In this document: positions 1-6,188 of the stretch, one piece after another
Position numbering within the stretch: position 1 is the stretch's first letter
How the letters are laid out: each line of letters opens with the position of its first letter
From: Sulfurimonas sp.
GTDB taxonomy: Bacteria; Campylobacterota; Campylobacteria; Campylobacterales; Sulfurimonadaceae
Direction of reading: 5' to 3'
Length of the DNA: 6,188 nucleotides
NCBI GenBank assembly: GCA_022712845.1
Contig: JAFLJV010000059.1
Location: 1-6,188 of the forward strand
The notes under the pieces: generated by a model
Databases searched by the model: none
Told to the model about the DNA's origin: nothing
Seen by the model: the letters and a program-made list of their open reading frames with translations, nothing else
Made by a program: the position numbers and the translations under genes

Positions 1-2
1 TG

Positions 3-647
3 GCAGGCTTGGCGCTATCAGAACCTTTGAAGACAGACCATACTCCAAAACCTCTACTACAAGTTAAAGGGAAACCTTTAATCATCTGGCACATAGAAAA
101 ACTTGCATCTTTGGGCTTTAATGAGATTGTTATAAATATTGCTCACTTAGGTTATAAAATACCTGAGACTTTAGGCGATGGCTCAAAGTGGGAAGTAAAA
201 CTACTTTACTCTGATGAACAAGATGGTGATGGACTTGAGAGTGCTGGTGGAATTATAAAAGCACTTGCTTTACTTGGAGATGATACTTTTTTAGTTGTAA
301 ATAGCGATATTTTTTGCGATTATGCGTTTGATAAATTTTTTGATTTGGGCAATGATTTAGCTCATCTTATTTTAGTTAAAAATCCAAAGCATAATCCTAA
401 TGGGGATTTTGGATTGATAGATGGCATAGTTTACAATGATGCAAAAGAAAAGTTAACTTTTAGTGGGATCGGTTATTATTCACCTAAACTATTTAAAGAT
501 TTAAAGTGTGAAAGAAGTTCTTTAACTCCTCTTCTAAGAAAAAATATAGAGCATAAAAAAATTAGCGGTTCACTTCATCAAGGTACTTGGCATGATATTG
601 GAACTCCACAAAGGCTGCAAACTATAAATAATAAATATAATTGTTAA
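3..647 (+). CDS. murU: MurU-like N-acetylmuramate-1-phosphate uridylyltransferase, 5' partial
   Basis: Nucleotidyltransferase of the NTP_transferase superfamily, closest in pattern to MurU. MurU makes UDP-MurNAc from MurNAc-1-phosphate and UTP in cytoplasmic peptidoglycan recycling. The frame is open to the left edge, so the true start lies outside; the TTG at position 9 is not a credible start because the conserved A-G of the nucleotide-binding loop is encoded just before it. Numbering from that TTG, visible motifs are HTPKPL (11-16), LGDGS (55-59), LESAGG (76-81, LETGGG in MurU), the metal-site VVNSD (96-100), FSGIGYYSP (151-159) and the C-terminal TWHDIGTPQRL (193-203). The length and the short C-terminus fit MurU rather than long RmlA or GlmU enzymes. 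The N-terminal GxGxR signature is poorly conserved (A-G-L-A-L-S-E-P-L-K-T). Family assignment is firm; the sugar specificity is inferred, and a mannose- or heptose-1-phosphate enzyme is the alternative. It is separated from the next gene by a promoter. Confidence 0.8.
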   Translation, partial: AGLALSEPLKTDHTPKPLLQVKGKPLIIWHIEKLASLGFNEIVINIAHLGYKIPETLGDGSKWEVKLLYSDEQDGDGLESAGGIIKALALLGDDTFLVVNSDIFCDYAFDKFFDLGNDLAHLILVKNPKHNPNGDFGLIDGIVYNDAKEKLTFSGIGYYSPKLFKDLKCERSSLTPLLRKNIEHKKISGSLHQGTWHDIGTPQRLQTINNKYNC

Positions 648-654
648 TGTAATT

Positions 655-682
655 TTGATTTTGATTTTTAAAGTGTTATAAT
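655..682 (+). promoter_or_regulatory. Sigma-70 promoter with extended -10 for the receptor operon
   Basis: A perfect TATAAT lies at 677-682, preceded by TG at 674-675 (extended -10, TGtTATAAT). TTGATT at 655-660 is a fair -35 with a 16-bp spacer. The upstream DNA repeats TTTTGA twice (653-664) and then runs into T5, resembling the periodic T-rich upstream DNA of Campylobacterota housekeeping promoters. Transcription would start near 689, giving a leader of about 20 nt before the ATG at 711. It is the only strong promoter seen in the window and would serve the three genes that follow. Confidence 0.7.
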
Positions 683-701
683 TTAGTGATTAATTGATAC
701 T

Positions 702-704
702 AGG
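702..704 (+). promoter_or_regulatory. Short ribosome binding site that selects ATG 711
   Basis: AGG at 702-704 sits 6 nt before ATG 711. An in-frame TTG at 705 would directly abut it and so cannot use it. This favours 711 as the start of the receptor gene. Confidence 0.5.
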
Positions 705-710
705 TTGCTT

Positions 711-2681
711 ATGTTAAAAATAATATTACTATTTATAACCTTCACTGTTTTGCTGTTTTCTAAAGATGTTGATGAGAGCTTAATCACTGGTTTACAAGAT
801 GATTTGCTAAAGTACTCTCAAATAGCTACAGAGACTAAGCAAAATGTTGATTATATGCCTTATGTTATTTCAGTGCTTAATAACAAAGAGCTTACTAAAT
901 TAGGCATACTTAATCTTCGTGAAGCATTAAGTCTAATTCCAAGTGTTGATATATCAATAAGCATGTTAGGTGTTAAAAATCCGATTTTTCGCGGTTCCAA
1001 TCCTTTTGCAATGGGGCAGTCAAAACTAATAATTGACGGAATTATTGTAAATTCTCAAATGATTAATGCTTACAACCAATACCTTGACATGCCAATTGAC
1101 ATTATCGATAAGATTGAAGTAGTCAGAGGTCCAGGCTCCACACTAAACAATGTATATGCTTATGCTGGCTCTATACATGTAATTACAAAAGCAAATAATA
1201 ACAATAAAGCTAAAAAAGAAAAAAGTATCTTTGCATCTTACGGCTCTGATAACTACAAAATGAGTGGTTTTGTAACCTCATATGAAAACGATGACTTTAA
1301 AATAAGCAGTGATCTTTTTTATCAGGAGCATGATAAAGAACTTCCTGCAGGTCCTGACCGTCTAGGCAACTCTTTAACTGCTCCTCTCTGGCTAGAAAAC
1401 TATGCCTTAGGTCTTAATGTAAGCTACGAAAATTTGTATCTAAAAAGTCGTTTTTCAAGTAATAATAGTGGCGTTAGCTATGGTCAATCATTTATTTTAA
1501 GCGATGATAATTCAGATAATTTAGATATTGAAAATAATTTTGCTGAACTTGGTTACAACTTTAATATTGCAAAAAATATCAAAGCAAAATTATCAGTTAG
1601 TTATTTCGATGAGTCAAGAATATTGCAAAATAAAGTAAAACCAGATACCAATGCAACCTCAAATGATGGAACATATTTTCTTGCTAATTATTCTGAACAG
1701 ACATACTCTCAAAATTTGGAAGTTAAAATATCTTCATTCTCAAATCATCTTATCACAACTGGTATGATTTTCTCTCAAAGCCGTATAAAAAACAACTTAT
1801 CAAAAAAATCAAATGATGATATGCAAAGTTTTTTTTATACAGGTAACCTATTTCTAAACAGCAAAAGAAATCACTCTTCGTTTTATATAGATGATTTGAT
1901 AAACCTAAGTGAAAAAATATCTGTACAGTTAGGTTTAAAGATAGATGCCCACAGTGATGTAAAGACTCAATACAGTCCTAGGCTTGCTATGGTTTATAGA
2001 TATAATGATGAAAATATCTACAAGATTATGTATACAAACTCTTTTCGAGAACCATCATGGAGAGAGCAGTATTTAGCAGGTGCTCCTTATCATAAGCCTA
2101 CAGCAAACTTAGAAAGTGAAAATGTTGATGCATTTGAAGCTGCATATATCAAAAAATTTGACCATAACAAAGATTTTAAAATTAATCTTTTTTATCTTTT
2201 TAACAAAGATCAAATAAATGCTCAAAATACTGATAAAACATTCAGAAACAGTGGTGATGGTGAAATCTATGGTTTTGAAACAGAATTTAGAACTTCATTG
2301 ATAAATAACGATCAGCTTTATCTTAACTACTCTTTTGCTGATGGTGAAAACACTTCTGGTACTATGGCAAATAGTGCACAAAGCATGGCAAAACTATATT
2401 ATATATATAATATAAATAATATGTTTGCTCTATCTTCAGTAATAAAATATATTTCGGATAAAGATCGTACAGATGGAGATAATAGAAAAAAGATTAATGA
2501 TTATGCAACGGTTGATTTTACAGCAACATATTCACATCAACCAAGTGATTTAATTATAAGCTTGAGCTTGAAAAATATATTTGATGAACATCCTGTTTTA
2601 CCTTCACCTGTAGATACTTATCCTACAGACTTCAAACAAGATGGGCAAAGTTTCTTAATCAGAATGAGCAAAAGATTTTGA
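711..2681 (+). CDS. TonB-dependent outer-membrane receptor
   Basis: Predicted 656-residue TonB-dependent receptor, a 22-strand outer-membrane barrel that takes up or senses a ligand using TonB/ExbBD energy. Residues 1 to about 17 are a signal peptide (MLKIILLFITFTVLLFS). A TonB-box-like stretch (DESLITG, 21-27) follows, then the plug at about 47-160. The plug shows P-YVISVL (50-56), LREALSLIP (69-77), FRGS (93-96), KLIIDG (105-110), IDKIEVVRGPGS (132-143) and SIHVITK (154-160). The rest is alternating aromatic barrel sequence ending in Phe, the usual BAM recognition residue. FREP followed by a late LKNIFDEHP motif is typical of the barrel's C-terminal half. Start 711 is preferred over TTG 705 because of AGG spacing and signal peptide quality. 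The gene is first in the operon after a strong promoter, with the next ATG 1 bp past its stop. Nothing identifies the ligand; no Fur box is visible, so iron-siderophore uptake should not be assumed. Confidence 0.93.
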   Translation: MLKIILLFITFTVLLFSKDVDESLITGLQDDLLKYSQIATETKQNVDYMPYVISVLNNKELTKLGILNLREALSLIPSVDISISMLGVKNPIFRGSNPFAMGQSKLIIDGIIVNSQMINAYNQYLDMPIDIIDKIEVVRGPGSTLNNVYAYAGSIHVITKANNNNKAKKEKSIFASYGSDNYKMSGFVTSYENDDFKISSDLFYQEHDKELPAGPDRLGNSLTAPLWLENYALGLNVSYENLYLKSRFSSNNSGVSYGQSFILSDDNSDNLDIENNFAELGYNFNIAKNIKAKLSVSYFDESRILQNKVKPDTNATSNDGTYFLANYSEQTYSQNLEVKISSFSNHLITTGMIFSQSRIKNNLSKKSNDDMQSFFYTGNLFLNSKRNHSSFYIDDLINLSEKISVQLGLKIDAHSDVKTQYSPRLAMVYRYNDENIYKIMYTNSFREPSWREQYLAGAPYHKPTANLESENVDAFEAAYIKKFDHNKDFKINLFYLFNKDQINAQNTDKTFRNSGDGEIYGFETEFRTSLINNDQLYLNYSFADGENTSGTMANSAQSMAKLYYIYNINNMFALSSVIKYISDKDRTDGDNRKKINDYATVDFTATYSHQPSDLIISLSLKNIFDEHPVLPSPVDTYPTDFKQDGQSFLIRMSKRF

Positions 2682-2682
2682 T

Positions 2683-3213
2683 ATGAAAACATTACTACTT
2701 CTAATACTTATATCACTATCACTTTATTCATATGAATTTGATAAACTATTGCTAAGAGCTCAAGCTTCCTTATTTCCAAAAATTATACTCTTAGATCAAG
2801 AAATAAACCTAAAAACAATAGACAACACAGTACTAATAAGCATTATCTATAACAATGATGAAGCTAAAGAAGCCAAGAATTTTAAAAATAATATATACAA
2901 ACAGTATAAAAAACGACTAGGAAATTACAATCTTGTCATTAAAACAGTACATGTAGATGAATTTTCAGATACAGATAACTCTAGTGCATATTTCATTTTT
3001 AATACTTTAGGCAAAAATAAAAAAAATATTATTACTCATGCAATAAAAAATCAGCGTATTTGTTTTAGTTATTCAAATAAATCTTTTGCTAACGACACTT
3101 TGATTAGCTTATTTTTAAAAGAGAAAACATACATATACCTTAATAAATCTGCCCTAAGTAAGTATAAAATTAAATTTACTCCTATCTTTTATAAGATAGC
3201 AAAGGCTATATAA
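2683..3213 (+). CDS. Secreted YfiR-like (DUF4154-like) periplasmic protein
   Basis: A 176-residue protein with an N-terminal signal peptide (residues 1 to about 17, MKTLLLLILISLSLYSY) and a compact mature domain. The assignment rests on three resemblances to YfiR/DUF4154: an early segment with aligned FPKIILLD (31-38), a central VLISIIYNND strand (50-59) followed by an alpha/beta pattern, and the C-terminal run YIYLNKSALSKYKIKF then YKIAKAI, matching the family ending F-x-I-N-L-x-A-A-x-x-x-G-L-x-I-S-S-x-L-L-x-L-A-x-V. In Pseudomonas, YfiR is a periplasmic repressor of the diguanylate cyclase YfiN. Only one cysteine (C127) is present, so the disulfides of Pseudomonas YfiR cannot form. The gene begins 1 bp after the receptor stop, has no good ribosome site of its own, and its TAA shares a base with the next ATG, so translational coupling with both neighbours is likely. 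The family call is by eye and moderate; secretion is confident. Confidence 0.7.
   Translation: MKTLLLLILISLSLYSYEFDKLLLRAQASLFPKIILLDQEINLKTIDNTVLISIIYNNDEAKEAKNFKNNIYKQYKKRLGNYNLVIKTVHVDEFSDTDNSSAYFIFNTLGKNKKNIITHAIKNQRICFSYSNKSFANDTLISLFLKEKTYIYLNKSALSKYKIKFTPIFYKIAKAI
3182..3199 (+). repeat. Perfect 7-bp inverted repeat before the c-di-GMP gene
   Basis: CTATCTT (3182-3188) and AAGATAG (3193-3199) are exact inverted copies around a TTAT loop. They lie inside the last codons of the YfiR-like gene and end 1 nt before the AAAGG ribosome site of the following gene. An RNA hairpin here would end immediately upstream of the Shine-Dalgarno. There is no T-run after it, so it is not an intrinsic terminator. 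A chance palindrome in A+T-rich coding DNA is possible. Confidence 0.5.
3201..3205 (+). promoter_or_regulatory. Ribosome binding site for the PAS-GGDEF-EAL gene
   Basis: AAAGG lies 7 nt before ATG 3213, inside the end of the preceding gene. Together with the TAATG stop-start overlap it gives this gene both its own initiation site and the possibility of coupled re-initiation. Confidence 0.6.
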
Positions 3214-5453
3214 TGCCAAATATATTATTAACTATAAAGACAAAGCTTGTAGTATCATTTATACTTGTGTTAATCTTTATTTTAACACTTATATATCTGA
3301 CTTTCAGTAGCCTTTTTCAAGAATACATGCTAAAAAGTGAAAAAGAAAAAGCCGTATTAATCGCACAAACAATTGAACCAATGATCGGTATAAATTATTA
3401 TTTAGGTTTAAATGCTGATACAAAACAGTTAGCTATACAAACTGTTGAAAACGACAATATAGAATCTCTGCGTATTACTATAAAAGGAAAAGAAGTTTTC
3501 TTTTCACCATATGATGAACAACAGAGATATATTGATATTAAATATCCAATTAAAGACACTACAACTCAGCTTCAAATCGGAACAATTGATATATTTTATA
3601 AGCTTGAAAATTTTGATAAAACATTTAGTGCCATCCAATCAAAAATAATTAAATATATGGCATTTCTTGCCATTACATTTTTACTATTTACACTGCTTAC
3701 CCGTCAACTACTTAACCCTCTAAATCAGATTGCAGACAAGGTGCAAAACTATAAACTTGACTCTACTATAGATTTTTCCAATATTAGAAAAGAGGTAGAA
3801 ACAGATGCCATCATAGAAGCTTTTAAAAAAATGCTAGCAAATGTACATGAGCACACCCTTCTTCTAGAAAGGTATAAGTATGCAGTAGACGAGAGTGCGA
3901 TTGTAAGTAAATCCGATATACATGGCACTATCACCTATGTAAATGATGAGTTTTGTCGAGCATCTGGGTATAGCAGATATGAGCTTCTTGGTAATACTCA
4001 TAAAATTCTAAGGCATCCTCAAACAAAAAATGAAGTTATTAAAAATATCTGGTCCAGACTAAATAAGAAACAAATATGGAAAGGCAGAATCAAAAACTTG
4101 ACCAAAGATGGTCAAACATATCATATTAAAATCACTATAGTGCCAATATTTGATGAAAATGGTAATACTGTTGAGTTTATAAGCTTAAGCCATGATATAA
4201 CACAAATTATAAAACAAAAAGAGCAAATTTTACGACAAACAACCAACAAATTAACAAATATTCCCAATAGAATTAAACTTGAAGAAGATATGAAAACTTT
4301 TCAATCACCAAAACTAGCATTAATTTCGATAGATAATTTTTATGTTATAAATGACTACTATGGCTACGAAACCGGCACTTATACTATAAAAGAAACTGCT
4401 AAAACTATTCAAGAGCATCTAAAAAAACATAGTATTAACATGTATCATATATCTTCTCACGAATTTGCCATGCTTACTAATGATGACATAGGCTATTCTG
4501 CCTTTGATGAAATATATCATGATATATTAAAAATAATAGACAATTATACTATTAATACAAATGGAAATTCATTAAATATATGTGCCACTGCTGGTATTAC
4601 ATACAATCAGCATAATGCTATTTCCAATGCATCTTTAGCGTTACATCATGCTAGAGAAACTGGCAAATCTTCACTTGTATATGAAGAAGCAAGTAATCTT
4701 GTTGGGTTATACAATAACAATATTAAATGGACAAAACGAATCAAAGATGCACTAAATGAAGATAGATTTGTAGTTTATGTTCAGCCTATAGTCGATGCCA
4801 AAACTCTTGAAACAGACAAATATGAGTGTTTAGTAAGAATGATAGATGAAGATGAAAACATTATATCTCCATACCATTTTCTAGATATTTCAAAAAAATC
4901 AAAACTATATCTTGGAATTACACAAAAAGTCATATCTTCATCATTTAAAATATTTTCTCAACTACCTGATAAATCATTTTCTATCAATCTTTCAGTAGAG
5001 GACCTTACCGATAAAACAAACATGAACTTCCTTAAACAAAAAATAAAAGAGTATGATATAGCCTCTCGTCTTGTGCTTGAAATAGTAGAGTCTGAGGGAA
5101 TTGAAAGCTTTGATGAAATAATTCCTCTAATAAATGAGCTCAAACAATTAGGATGTAGCATATCTATTGATGATTTTGGAACTGGTTACTCAAATTTTGC
5201 ATACTTAATGGAGCTTAATGTTGATTATATAAAAATTGACGGTTCACTTATAAAAGATATAGACCATAATATCAACAGCCAAATAATCTCAAAAACTATT
5301 TTAGATTTTGCCGTACAACTTAAGCTTAAAACAGTTGCTGAGTTTATACACAACGAAAGTGTAATGCATTATACACAAGAGATGGGTATAGACTACCTGC
5401 AAGGTTTTCATCTTGGCGAACCTGTGCCAATTGAAACTCTTATGTCTAAATAA
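3213..5453 (+). CDS. Membrane PAS-GGDEF(degenerate)-EAL c-di-GMP phosphodiesterase
   Basis: A 746-residue inner-membrane signalling protein. Two membrane segments (about 11-31 and 147-163) enclose a roughly 115-residue periplasmic sensor whose helix-then-strand pattern (AVLIAQTIEPMI, then IGTIDIFYKLENF) resembles the YfiN-type sensor. A HAMP-like linker follows (about 164-215), then a PAS domain (about 220-331) of the Aer-like type with ELLGNTHKILRHP, a short helix, a GGDEF domain (about 345-492) and an EAL domain (about 505-744). The GGDEF signature is SSHEF (414-418) and no RxxD inhibitory site precedes it, so cyclase activity is unlikely. The EAL domain keeps what look like all metal and catalytic residues: E538 (in ECL), N592, E623/E626, D653-D654 in DDFGTGYS, K674, E710 and Q730 in QGF. 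Hydrolysis of c-di-GMP to pGpG is therefore predicted, possibly tuned by the silent GGDEF domain. It overlaps the YfiR-like gene by one base, which suggests that protein acts on its periplasmic domain. Domain calls are firm; activity and partner are inferred. Confidence 0.92.
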   Translation: MPNILLTIKTKLVVSFILVLIFILTLIYLTFSSLFQEYMLKSEKEKAVLIAQTIEPMIGINYYLGLNADTKQLAIQTVENDNIESLRITIKGKEVFFSPYDEQQRYIDIKYPIKDTTTQLQIGTIDIFYKLENFDKTFSAIQSKIIKYMAFLAITFLLFTLLTRQLLNPLNQIADKVQNYKLDSTIDFSNIRKEVETDAIIEAFKKMLANVHEHTLLLERYKYAVDESAIVSKSDIHGTITYVNDEFCRASGYSRYELLGNTHKILRHPQTKNEVIKNIWSRLNKKQIWKGRIKNLTKDGQTYHIKITIVPIFDENGNTVEFISLSHDITQIIKQKEQILRQTTNKLTNIPNRIKLEEDMKTFQSPKLALISIDNFYVINDYYGYETGTYTIKETAKTIQEHLKKHSINMYHISSHEFAMLTNDDIGYSAFDEIYHDILKIIDNYTINTNGNSLNICATAGITYNQHNAISNASLALHHARETGKSSLVYEEASNLVGLYNNNIKWTKRIKDALNEDRFVVYVQPIVDAKTLETDKYECLVRMIDEDENIISPYHFLDISKKSKLYLGITQKVISSSFKIFSQLPDKSFSINLSVEDLTDKTNMNFLKQKIKEYDIASRLVLEIVESEGIESFDEIIPLINELKQLGCSISIDDFGTGYSNFAYLMELNVDYIKIDGSLIKDIDHNINSQIISKTILDFAVQLKLKTVAEFIHNESVMHYTQEMGIDYLQGFHLGEPVPIETLMSK

Positions 5454-5467
5454 AAATAGCTTTTTAT
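5450..5467 (+). repeat. AT-only inverted repeat spanning a stop and the next start
   Basis: ATAAAAA (5450-5456) and TTTTTAT (5461-5467) are inverted copies with a TAGC loop. The left arm contains the stop of the PAS-GGDEF-EAL gene and the right arm contains the first two bases of the next ATG. All pairs are A-T, so any stem is weak. It is recorded because it is the only structure in this gap and could dampen initiation of the downstream gene. Confidence 0.3.
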
Positions 5468-5750
5468 GCACTATGAGTTTGAAGAGGATGCTGAGCCAAC
5501 TTGGCTGATAAAACAAAAAGAAGATGCTCTACTTGCTGAAACAGCTTACGCTAAAAACGAAAAGATTATCTATAAAAAAGGTGATCAGGTAGGTAACTTT
5601 TTATTTGTTCATTATAATAAAGCTAAAAATAGAGCTACATTTGAGTGTCAAGAATGCAGTAGAAAATTTACTTATAATATCTACAGCATTAAAAATAAAA
5701 AACGGTGTAAGTGGTATAAATTTCATGATAAACCATTTAAAGTCAAATAA
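5466..5750 (+). CDS. Small orphan protein with CxxC zinc-knuckle-like motif
   Basis: A 94-residue protein whose family I do not recognise. The N-terminal 30 residues are acidic and probably helical (MHYEFEEDAEPTWLIKQKED and on). The rest is basic and resembles small zinc-ribbon proteins: a GDQVGNFLFVHY strand segment (39-50), then R-A-T-F-E-C-Q-E-C (56-64), an intervening Y-S-I-K-N stretch, and K-R-C-K-W (79-83). Cysteines are at 61, 64 and 81, with a histidine at 87 as a possible fourth ligand (C-x2-C-x16-C-x5-H). No signal peptide or membrane segment is present, so it should be cytoplasmic; nucleic-acid binding is possible but unproven. ATG 5466 is the only plausible start, since an in-frame TAG lies 9 bp upstream, though no clear Shine-Dalgarno precedes it. 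It lies 12 bp after the phosphodiesterase gene and may be co-transcribed. Being a real gene is supported by position, strand and codon style like the neighbours. Confidence 0.65.
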   Translation: MHYEFEEDAEPTWLIKQKEDALLAETAYAKNEKIIYKKGDQVGNFLFVHYNKAKNRATFECQECSRKFTYNIYSIKNKKRCKWYKFHDKPFKVK

Positions 5751-5790
5751 ACTCTTCTTTTATATACCATCTTTTGTTATCATTATAAAT

Positions 5791-5794
5791 AAGG
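5791..5794 (+). promoter_or_regulatory. Ribosome binding site for the lytic transglycosylase gene
   Basis: AAGG lies 7 nt before ATG 5802. The surrounding 51-bp gap (5751-5801) is A+T-rich and shows no hairpin terminator and no promoter I would trust. Confidence 0.6.
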
Positions 5795-5801
5795 TATTTA
5801 A

Positions 5802-6188
5802 ATGATTAAAATTATCTCTTTACTGCTCTTTAATACACTACTTTTTGCAGAATATTCAAACTGTGATTTTCAAAATAAAAACTATGAAGAGATTTGTCAA
5901 AAAGTTGTAAAAAAAGGTGTTTCTTACAAATACGCAAATGAGTTTTTACTCTCTTACTTTAAAACAAAAAAATTTGATGAGATAAGTTATAAATATCTAC
6001 AACCAAAATATATCAAACAACATAGAAAAAATGAAAAAAAAGCTAACAATACACTTGTGAAGTTTTTACCAAAAGTTTTAAAACATTTAGAAGAGTACAA
6101 AGAAGTTTATGACTATACTGAAGAAAAATTTGGTGTAAATCGTGAAATAATTGCCGCTATCTTACTTAAAGAGACTAAGCTTGGTGTT
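5802..6188 (+). CDS. MltB-like lytic murein transglycosylase, 3' partial
   Basis: The first 129 residues are visible and the right edge cuts the gene. A signal peptide (MIKIISLLLFNTLLFA, cleavage probably after residue 16) sends it to the periplasm. C21 lies five residues into the mature part but there is no proper lipobox, so it is more likely soluble than a lipoprotein. A lysine-rich helical region follows. The segment Y-D-Y-T-E-E-K-F-G-V-N-R-E-I-I-A-A-I-L-L-K-E-T-K-L-G-V (103-129) matches the start of the MltB/SLT_2 catalytic domain (pattern YGVPPEIIVAIWGVETNYG), which puts the catalytic glutamate at E124. Such enzymes cleave the MurNAc-GlcNAc bond of peptidoglycan to give 1,6-anhydroMurNAc. 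Start 5802 is supported by AAGG 7 nt upstream and by the signal peptide. The downstream half of the domain cannot be checked here. Confidence 0.8.
   Translation, partial: MIKIISLLLFNTLLFAEYSNCDFQNKNYEEICQKVVKKGVSYKYANEFLLSYFKTKKFDEISYKYLQPKYIKQHRKNEKKANNTLVKFLPKVLKHLEEYKEVYDYTEEKFGVNREIIAAILLKETKLGV

Follow-up and report, generated by a model that had tools for sequence, protein, structure and literature searches.

Among the closest known systems to the locus considered here is the YfiBNR system of Pseudomonas aeruginosa (YfiR-DgcN-YfiB in Escherichia coli), whose YfiR/YfiN/YfiB mechanism is set out in parts of PMC4655355. The locus lies in a 6,188-nucleotide stretch of DNA from Sulfurimonas sp. 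(GenBank assembly GCA_022712845.1, contig JAFLJV010000059.1, positions 1 to 6,188 of the forward strand), which was analysed as a whole and is referred to as the window. It resembles YfiBNR in having a YfiR-fold periplasmic protein, an input module of the form transmembrane (TM) helix, PAS-like domain, TM helix and HAMP region, an outer-membrane partner, an output acting on cyclic di-GMP (c-di-GMP), and a tight operon, for which the E. coli order was seen. On the other hand, a TonB-dependent receptor is found here instead of the lipoprotein YfiB, c-di-GMP would be broken down by an EAL domain rather than synthesized by a GGDEF domain, the YfiR disulfides are absent, and many relatives carry an additional gene similar to N-acyl amino acid synthases (NAS) and LuxI. 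The three genes probably constitute one trans-envelope signalling line, leading from receptor to YfiR-fold relay to sensor to EAL domain, for which we infer the contacts, direction and ligand.

Several other systems share individual parts of this arrangement. In cell-surface signalling of the FecA/FpvA type, a TonB-dependent receptor reports ligand binding across the envelope, as is proposed for the receptor in the window. However, the latter (P0001) has little room for an N-terminal signalling domain, with the plug match beginning at residue 49, no match to an anti-sigma or extracytoplasmic function (ECF) sigma factor was found among the six open reading frames (ORFs) of the window, and the unit has a YfiR-fold relay and a c-di-GMP output. 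In LuxP-LuxQ, a periplasmic binding-protein-like adaptor acts on a PAS-like sensor, whereas the window combines a one-lobe YfiR fold with an outer-membrane receptor and an EAL output. The gene upstream of the receptor in relatives shares Pfam families and invariant residues with NAS (FeeM, exosortase-linked) and LuxI, but it falls below the TIGR03694 cut-off and sits with a TonB-dependent receptor, and the window has no such gene. A separate link of N-acyl amino acid synthesis to c-di-GMP, described in parts of PMC4897644, is provided by the NAS-PilZ fusion enzymes Nas343 and Nas354; there the c-di-GMP-binding domain is fused to the synthase, whereas here the receptor line would change c-di-GMP. 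Among the titles and abstracts listed by searches of the open-access literature for YfiR or DUF4154 with TonB receptors (in one case 15 of 1,041), none dealt with such an arrangement, which leaves its absence from print unproven.

Organization of the three-gene unit

Three tightly packed genes on the + strand of the window encode a TonB-dependent receptor, a small secreted protein and a membrane sensor with an EAL domain. The first two genes are separated by a 1-bp gap and the last two overlap by 1 bp (TAATG), so that the positions and tight spacing given in an earlier sequence-only reading of this DNA were borne out. The single promoter which that reading placed ahead of the genes did not stand equally well: a TTGATT-16-TATAAT site is present, yet in its number of promoter-like sites the window does not exceed shuffled sequences (35 found vs 37.1 expected). 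The features are as follows.

655..682, + strand: promoter-like site TTGATT-16-TATAAT, ahead of the three genes (consensus match only)
711..2681, + strand: TonB-dependent outer-membrane receptor P0001, 656 residues (ATG at 711, in-frame TTG at 705)
822..860, + strand: IATETKQNVDYMP, short segment that separates the signal peptide from the plug (from 84 aligned full-length cassette receptors)
855..1169, + strand: plug domain (PF07715, residues 49-153)
2683..3213, + strand: putative YfiR-fold periplasmic protein P0002, 176 residues (AlphaFold2 model, PDB fold matches, bridging relatives)
3213..5453, + strand: inner-membrane sensor P0003 with PAS, degenerate GGDEF and EAL domains, 746 residues (Pfam, catalytic residues)
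3213..3857, + strand: predicted YfiN-type input module, with TM helix, PAS-like periplasmic domain, TM helix and HAMP-like region (model pLDDT, a per-residue confidence measure, 86.0; fold search)
3900..4205, + strand: cytoplasmic PAS domain (PF13426, residues 230-331)
4248..4661, + strand: GGDEF-like domain with degenerate active-site motif SSHEF (Pfam, residues 346-483)
4737..5423, + strand: EAL domain with eight catalytic positions kept (E538, N592, E623, D653, D654, K674, E710, Q730)

Conservation of gene order

Homologues were found at 26 loci in the genome collection and in 71 of 298 genomes of the order that includes G004 (a Sulfurimonas). The comparison comprised 120 rows, namely L001-L025, L027, L028, 92 fetched regions and the window (L026, a short contig without a YfiR ORF, was dropped); three rows are duplicates, which leaves 117 distinct loci. 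The receptor gene lies directly upstream of the YfiR-like gene on the same strand in 100 of these loci, elsewhere nearby in 8, and beyond view at a contig edge in 3. Gene order conserved in relatives, a check proposed with the sequence-only reading, was thereby confirmed. The spacing is similarly tight: 95 of 101 receptor-YfiR gaps fall within -40 to +10 bp and 76 of 88 YfiR-output gaps within -40 to +50 bp (duplicates included in both counts). The arrangement of receptor, YfiR-like protein and output is not a chance one.

A different composition was observed at L102, L103, L119, L120, L127 and L130, where the YfiR-like gene is accompanied by a kinase, cyclase or EAL output (cut off in L120) and no receptor was detected nearby; these loci are possibly a receptor-less form.

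Identity of the three proteins

P0001 matched both the beta-barrel family PF00593 (87.3 bits, cut-off 27) and the plug family PF07715 (47.1 bits, cut-off 23.9), and none of the six window ORFs scanned against Pfam showed an OmpA-like domain of the kind found in YfiB-type lipoproteins, which supports the view that a TonB-dependent receptor stands in the place of YfiB. In the alignment, a close version of the IATETKQNVDYMP stretch (approximately IATxTKxNxD) appears in seven of the ten receptors printed; the stretch is a candidate contact to the YfiR-like protein.

The assignment of the small protein required several lines of evidence. PF13689 (DUF4154) gave no direct Pfam match for P0002 or for any of the 44 members of alignment A1 (drawn from a set of 97 proteins, and with P0002 included), and it matched one of the 23 members of alignment A2 (1.4e-5). 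The AlphaFold2 model of P0002 (pLDDT 86.2) found solved YfiR chains as its best PDB matches, pointing to a YfiR fold. The A2 profile matched L028 (3e-20) and L027 (5e-7; E values for 2269 ORFs), and these proteins score 31.5 and 114.5 bits, respectively, on PF13689, which provides a profile link to bona fide DUF4154 proteins. Comparison with the DUF4154 set by hhalign gave 91.7% for A2 and only 35.6% for A1. Thus, the YfiR label for P0002 holds through the predicted fold and the bridging relatives, which outweigh the failed direct placement; the refuting condition named with the sequence-only reading, a profile search that does not place the protein in DUF4154, did come true for the direct Pfam search, which matched 0 of 44 A1 members. 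Weak matches of the small protein to UvrD, Mob_Pre and other Pfam families were taken as chance. A PDB sequence search with its profile returned nothing useful, and no relative of P0002 was found in viral contigs when these were searched by patterns of the single protein.

All three families detected in P0003 scored above cut-off (EAL 207.3, GGDEF 39.5 and PAS_9 60.7 bits). The eight catalytic EAL positions, which we take to be the set E, N, E, D, D, K, E, Q, are invariant in all 68 full-length EAL outputs, including that of the window, and alignments with the closest solved EAL domains run through these positions. Among the GGDEF sites of the EAL outputs, SGDEF (37) and GGDEF (13) are the commonest, and the SSHEF of the window does not fit the motif of an active cyclase; a blanket label of 'degenerate' for these sites was rejected as overstated, SGDEF being the commonest form. 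P0003 is therefore a predicted c-di-GMP phosphodiesterase. The sign reversed relative to YfiBNR that was proposed earlier holds for the output type only: since cyclases and histidine kinases are driven by the same module elsewhere, the sign follows the output gene, and the direction of c-di-GMP change depends on it.

A shared sensor with exchanged outputs

The genes downstream of the YfiR-like gene were classified in all 117 loci as EAL with GGDEF (69), histidine kinase (19), GGDEF alone (13), none (10) or contig edge (6), one of the GGDEF-alone cases (L019) being the N-terminal piece of an EAL protein that is split. When 20 downstream proteins were scanned against Pfam, the presence of kinases, cyclases and EAL proteins was confirmed, and these classes supersede crude regular-expression classes in the main set, the latter being used for the gammaproteobacterial loci. 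HipA (L021) and serine hydroxymethyltransferase (SHMT; L071) were discarded as outputs, as they proved to be unrelated neighbours in the Pfam scan.

A profile built from the N-termini of the EAL outputs matched all EAL (57/57), histidine-kinase (18/18), GGDEF (11/11) and large GGDEF-EAL (11/11) proteins, as well as 12 of 17 outputs linked to DUF4154 in Gammaproteobacteria; the profile of the gammaproteobacterial set, in turn, matched E. coli DgcN/YfiN (E 2.5e-28) and 52 of the 57 EAL outputs. With a profile of the periplasmic part only, matches were obtained for EAL 57/57, histidine kinase 15/18, GGDEF 11/11, large GGDEF-EAL 5/11 and gammaproteobacterial outputs 1/17. When run against the 2269 ORFs of the loci, this profile produced 102 matches: 89 assigned outputs, 3 duplicates, 5 truncated or split outputs (L003, L072, L074, L083, L120) and 5 outputs elsewhere in loci that seemed to have none (L109, L114, L115, L121, L125). 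Among other kinase, EAL or GGDEF ORFs of more than 250 residues in the loci, 22 of 30 were not matched. A YfiN-type periplasmic input for P0003 is thus indicated indirectly, via the gammaproteobacterial sensors, and weakly with the periplasmic part alone. As judged by these profile matches, phosphodiesterases, cyclases and histidine kinases have the sensor domain in common, so that receptor, YfiR-like protein and sensor make up a module whose outputs can be exchanged; these three parts usually travel together, and it is the catalytic end that varies. A receptor-like ORF was also in view in 19 of 30 gammaproteobacterial DUF4154 loci, though not upstream on the same strand in L159 and L162.

A synthase-like gene in relatives

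In many relatives, a gene of approximately 195 codons lies upstream of the receptor. It is present in 46 loci, absent in 38, cut before in 16 and not judgeable in 17, that is, found in 46 of 84 evaluable loci, and 43 of the 46 synthase-receptor spacings are within -122 to +20 bp (measured from the first possible start). Its products match PF13444 (45/45), PF00765 (35/45) and PF21926 (26/45) at E values up to 0.001, and all 45 share R21, D45, D48, E97, S99 and R100, a set close to what we take to be the LuxI residues. Both the Pfam family and the conserved acidic and basic residues of the NAS/LuxI group are therefore present, and some databases label members of the group as acyl-homoserine-lactone synthases. 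By contrast with the cut-off of 111.95 bits for the exosortase-linked acyltransferase model TIGR03694, all seven proteins tested reached 53.1-66.5 bits, and a PDB sequence search with the synthase profile yielded only a GNAT acetyltransferase (E 0.013). The gene is present in genome-length records named Sulfurimonas and Nitrosophilus, and all four genes stand together on the L081 contig. The natural role of NAS is called unclear or poorly understood in parts of PMC4897644 and PMC11631085.

The synthase is distributed unevenly among outputs, accompanying 39 EAL outputs (17 without it) and 0 of 15 histidine-kinase or GGDEF-only outputs in evaluable loci. In the 30 gammaproteobacterial DUF4154 loci, with flanks of only ~1.5 kb, no ORF matched the synthase profile. 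We tentatively put forward, at somewhat short of an even chance, that the four-gene operon of Campylobacterota makes a long-chain acyl signal (an N-acyl amino acid or an acyl-homoserine-lactone-like compound) and senses it again at the outer membrane, via TonB-dependent receptor, YfiR-fold relay and phosphodiesterase, as a cell-density or kin signal for a lifestyle change; that the sub-clade of the window, shared with genomes labelled Gammaproteobacteria, is a listener without synthase; and that receptor, relay and sensor form a general module refitted with phosphodiesterase, cyclase and histidine kinase more than once.

Alternatively, the product of the upstream acyltransferase would be a surfactant or an aminolipid of the membrane, and the gene would not be tied to the receptor as signal to reader, a reading that we regard as a serious if lesser possibility. 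Enzymes that make lipids or surfactants belong to the family or resemble it (parts of PMC11631085 and PMC4897644), and 7 of 46 synthase homologues in the order (matches with E <1e-20, compared with a hand-entered list of YfiR places) were not seen beside a receptor, two of them at contig edges. However, 35 of the 46 are at most 4 kb from a YfiR match, one of these being a decayed fragment (G245), three more lie beside a contig-cut receptor and one beside a truncated receptor frame, and the association with EAL outputs (39 of 56) but with none of the other two classes likewise speaks against this reading.

Several individual loci show variations of the synthase gene. Decayed copies with stop codons lie beside receptor-YfiR-EAL genes in L065 (G245:C2:158721-159070) and L068 (G132:C1:372062-372303); the 70-residue remnant of L065 is outside the A6 alignment and inside the 46 positive loci and the 39 EAL loci. 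A PF04072 (leucine carboxyl methyltransferase-type) gene adjoins a stand-alone synthase in L197 (2957-3841) and L198 (4399-5283), from G232 and G535, whose cassettes are without synthase; the acyl product there might be a methyl ester. In L021 (4003-4554), a 4'-phosphopantetheinyl transferase gene is found upstream of the receptor in place of the synthase. In L114 and L121, synthase, receptor and YfiR-like genes occur without a downstream output, and a divergent gene for a protein with the shared sensor adjoins the synthase; that of L114 encodes a GGDEF domain followed by the beginning of an EAL domain, where the fetched stretch ends.

Position of the window among relatives

The nearest named relative is L001, a Sulfurimonas metagenome-assembled genome with 79% identity over the small protein, and the next four (L002-L005) are titled Gammaproteobacteria, so that horizontal transfer or mis-binning is in play. 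In the tree of YfiR-like proteins, built by a quick method with SH-aLRT (an approximate likelihood ratio test) as sole support and with ORFs of more than 230 residues cut to their last 200, L002-L005 and L017 (genomes titled Gammaproteobacteria) group with Campylobacterota cassettes. Every synthase-bearing locus falls in one 73-row clade (support 97), which also includes the window and has a synthase in 46 of its 60 judgeable rows. No synthase was found in the six-row sub-clade of the window and L001-L005 (support 98), nor was one matched elsewhere in the five draft genomes of L001-L005; in the sister group L073-L075, it is present at two loci, the remaining one being cut. The full-length outputs in the sub-clade have 746-752 residues vs ~640-665 in most of the clade (~100 residues longer), which suggests that the others also contain the extra PAS domain of the window, PAS having been scanned in the window only. 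In this sub-clade, losing the signal maker thus seems to go together with gaining a second input. The version in the window, without an adjoining synthase, may respond to a signal that others produce or to some unrelated ligand.

Proposed mechanism and alternatives

In the proposed line, a ligand would bind the TonB-dependent receptor at the outer membrane, and the periplasmic side of the receptor (plug and short N-terminal stretch) would alter its hold on the YfiR-fold protein. The latter would dock on the PAS-like periplasmic domain of the sensor, as YfiR probably does on YfiN, and docking would switch the EAL domain in the cytoplasm, by which c-di-GMP would be degraded. In its simplest form the line would work like YfiBNR: unbound YfiR-like protein would keep the enzyme off, the ligand-loaded receptor would remove this protein, and c-di-GMP would fall. 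Such logic, in which the YfiR-fold protein holds the sensor until the loaded receptor removes it, is taken here as the most likely one. If so, YfiBNR would be one form of a widespread outer-membrane-to-cytoplasm module with exchangeable outputs instead of a special case, relaying signals from TonB-dependent receptors would be a general function of DUF4154-type proteins, and N-acyl amino acid synthases would have both a candidate receptor and a candidate response.

Several observations weigh against this scheme. No receptor was detected within ~4.5 kb in 6 of the 117 loci, and the receptor N-terminal stretch diverges in three of the ten printed receptors (L077, L105, L122). Pairwise distance correlations in a mirror-tree analysis were 0.89-0.92 for every gene pair; being high for all pairs and lacking a control gene, they are not proof of contact. 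The EAL-output profile misses E. coli DgcN/YfiN itself (E 0.8), and the profile of the periplasmic part alone misses it as well, besides falling off for histidine kinases, large GGDEF-EAL proteins and gammaproteobacterial outputs as given above. Moreover, P. aeruginosa YfiR has disulfide-forming cysteine pairs, according to parts of PMC4655355, and P0002, with a single cysteine at residue 127, lacks these disulfides; in 71 of the 117 loci, the last 160 residues of the YfiR-like protein contain no cysteine.

The main rival to the YfiBNR-like logic is that the receptor only imports the ligand with TonB and that the YfiR-fold protein, as a one-lobe periplasmic binder, presents it to the PAS-like sensor in the manner of LuxP-LuxQ. 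This is unlikely, though worth keeping in mind: the predicted YfiR fold is a single lobe and offers no two-lobe ligand cleft, the LuxQ match is weak, and the receptor N-terminal stretch, recognisable in most but not all printed receptors, hints at a contact beyond import.

A LapD-like role for the EAL protein, as a c-di-GMP effector without phosphodiesterase activity, is quite improbable. In its favour, P0003 combines a degenerate GGDEF with an EAL domain, one fold match of the sensor is the periplasmic domain of a LapD orthologue (4u64, E 3.4e-3), and there is a match to the LapD model of NCBIfam, at 126.6 bits far short of the cut-off of 1020. The catalytic EAL positions kept throughout the 68 outputs argue otherwise, though the motif reads ECL in the window; LapD has lost enzymatic activity. 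Finally, mere co-transcription of a nutrient receptor and a c-di-GMP gene, with the YfiR-like protein responding to some other periplasmic cue, is very improbable: TonB receptors are usually transporters and the closest solved receptor to P0001 by sequence is the colicin I receptor, but the coupling persists among deeply diverged loci (in 72 triplets, receptor and YfiR have a median pairwise identity of ~0.26) and a single sensor family has exchanged outputs.

Neighbouring genes and other features

Riboswitch control was dropped, since Rfam matches in the window and 12 relatives were limited to tRNA and signal recognition particle (SRP) RNA. Directly upstream of the cassette, at the site of the synthase in many relatives, lies a MurU-like nucleotidyltransferase gene (3-647), cut by the window start (NF045761, 249.7 bits vs a cut-off of 250). 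Downstream, a 94-residue ORF with a CxxC pair (5466-5750) has no family above cut-off; L001 has an ORF of equal length after its cassette (3316-3600), the likeness being one of length and place. The start of a lytic transglycosylase (SLT_2) gene (5802-6188) follows and is cut by the window end.

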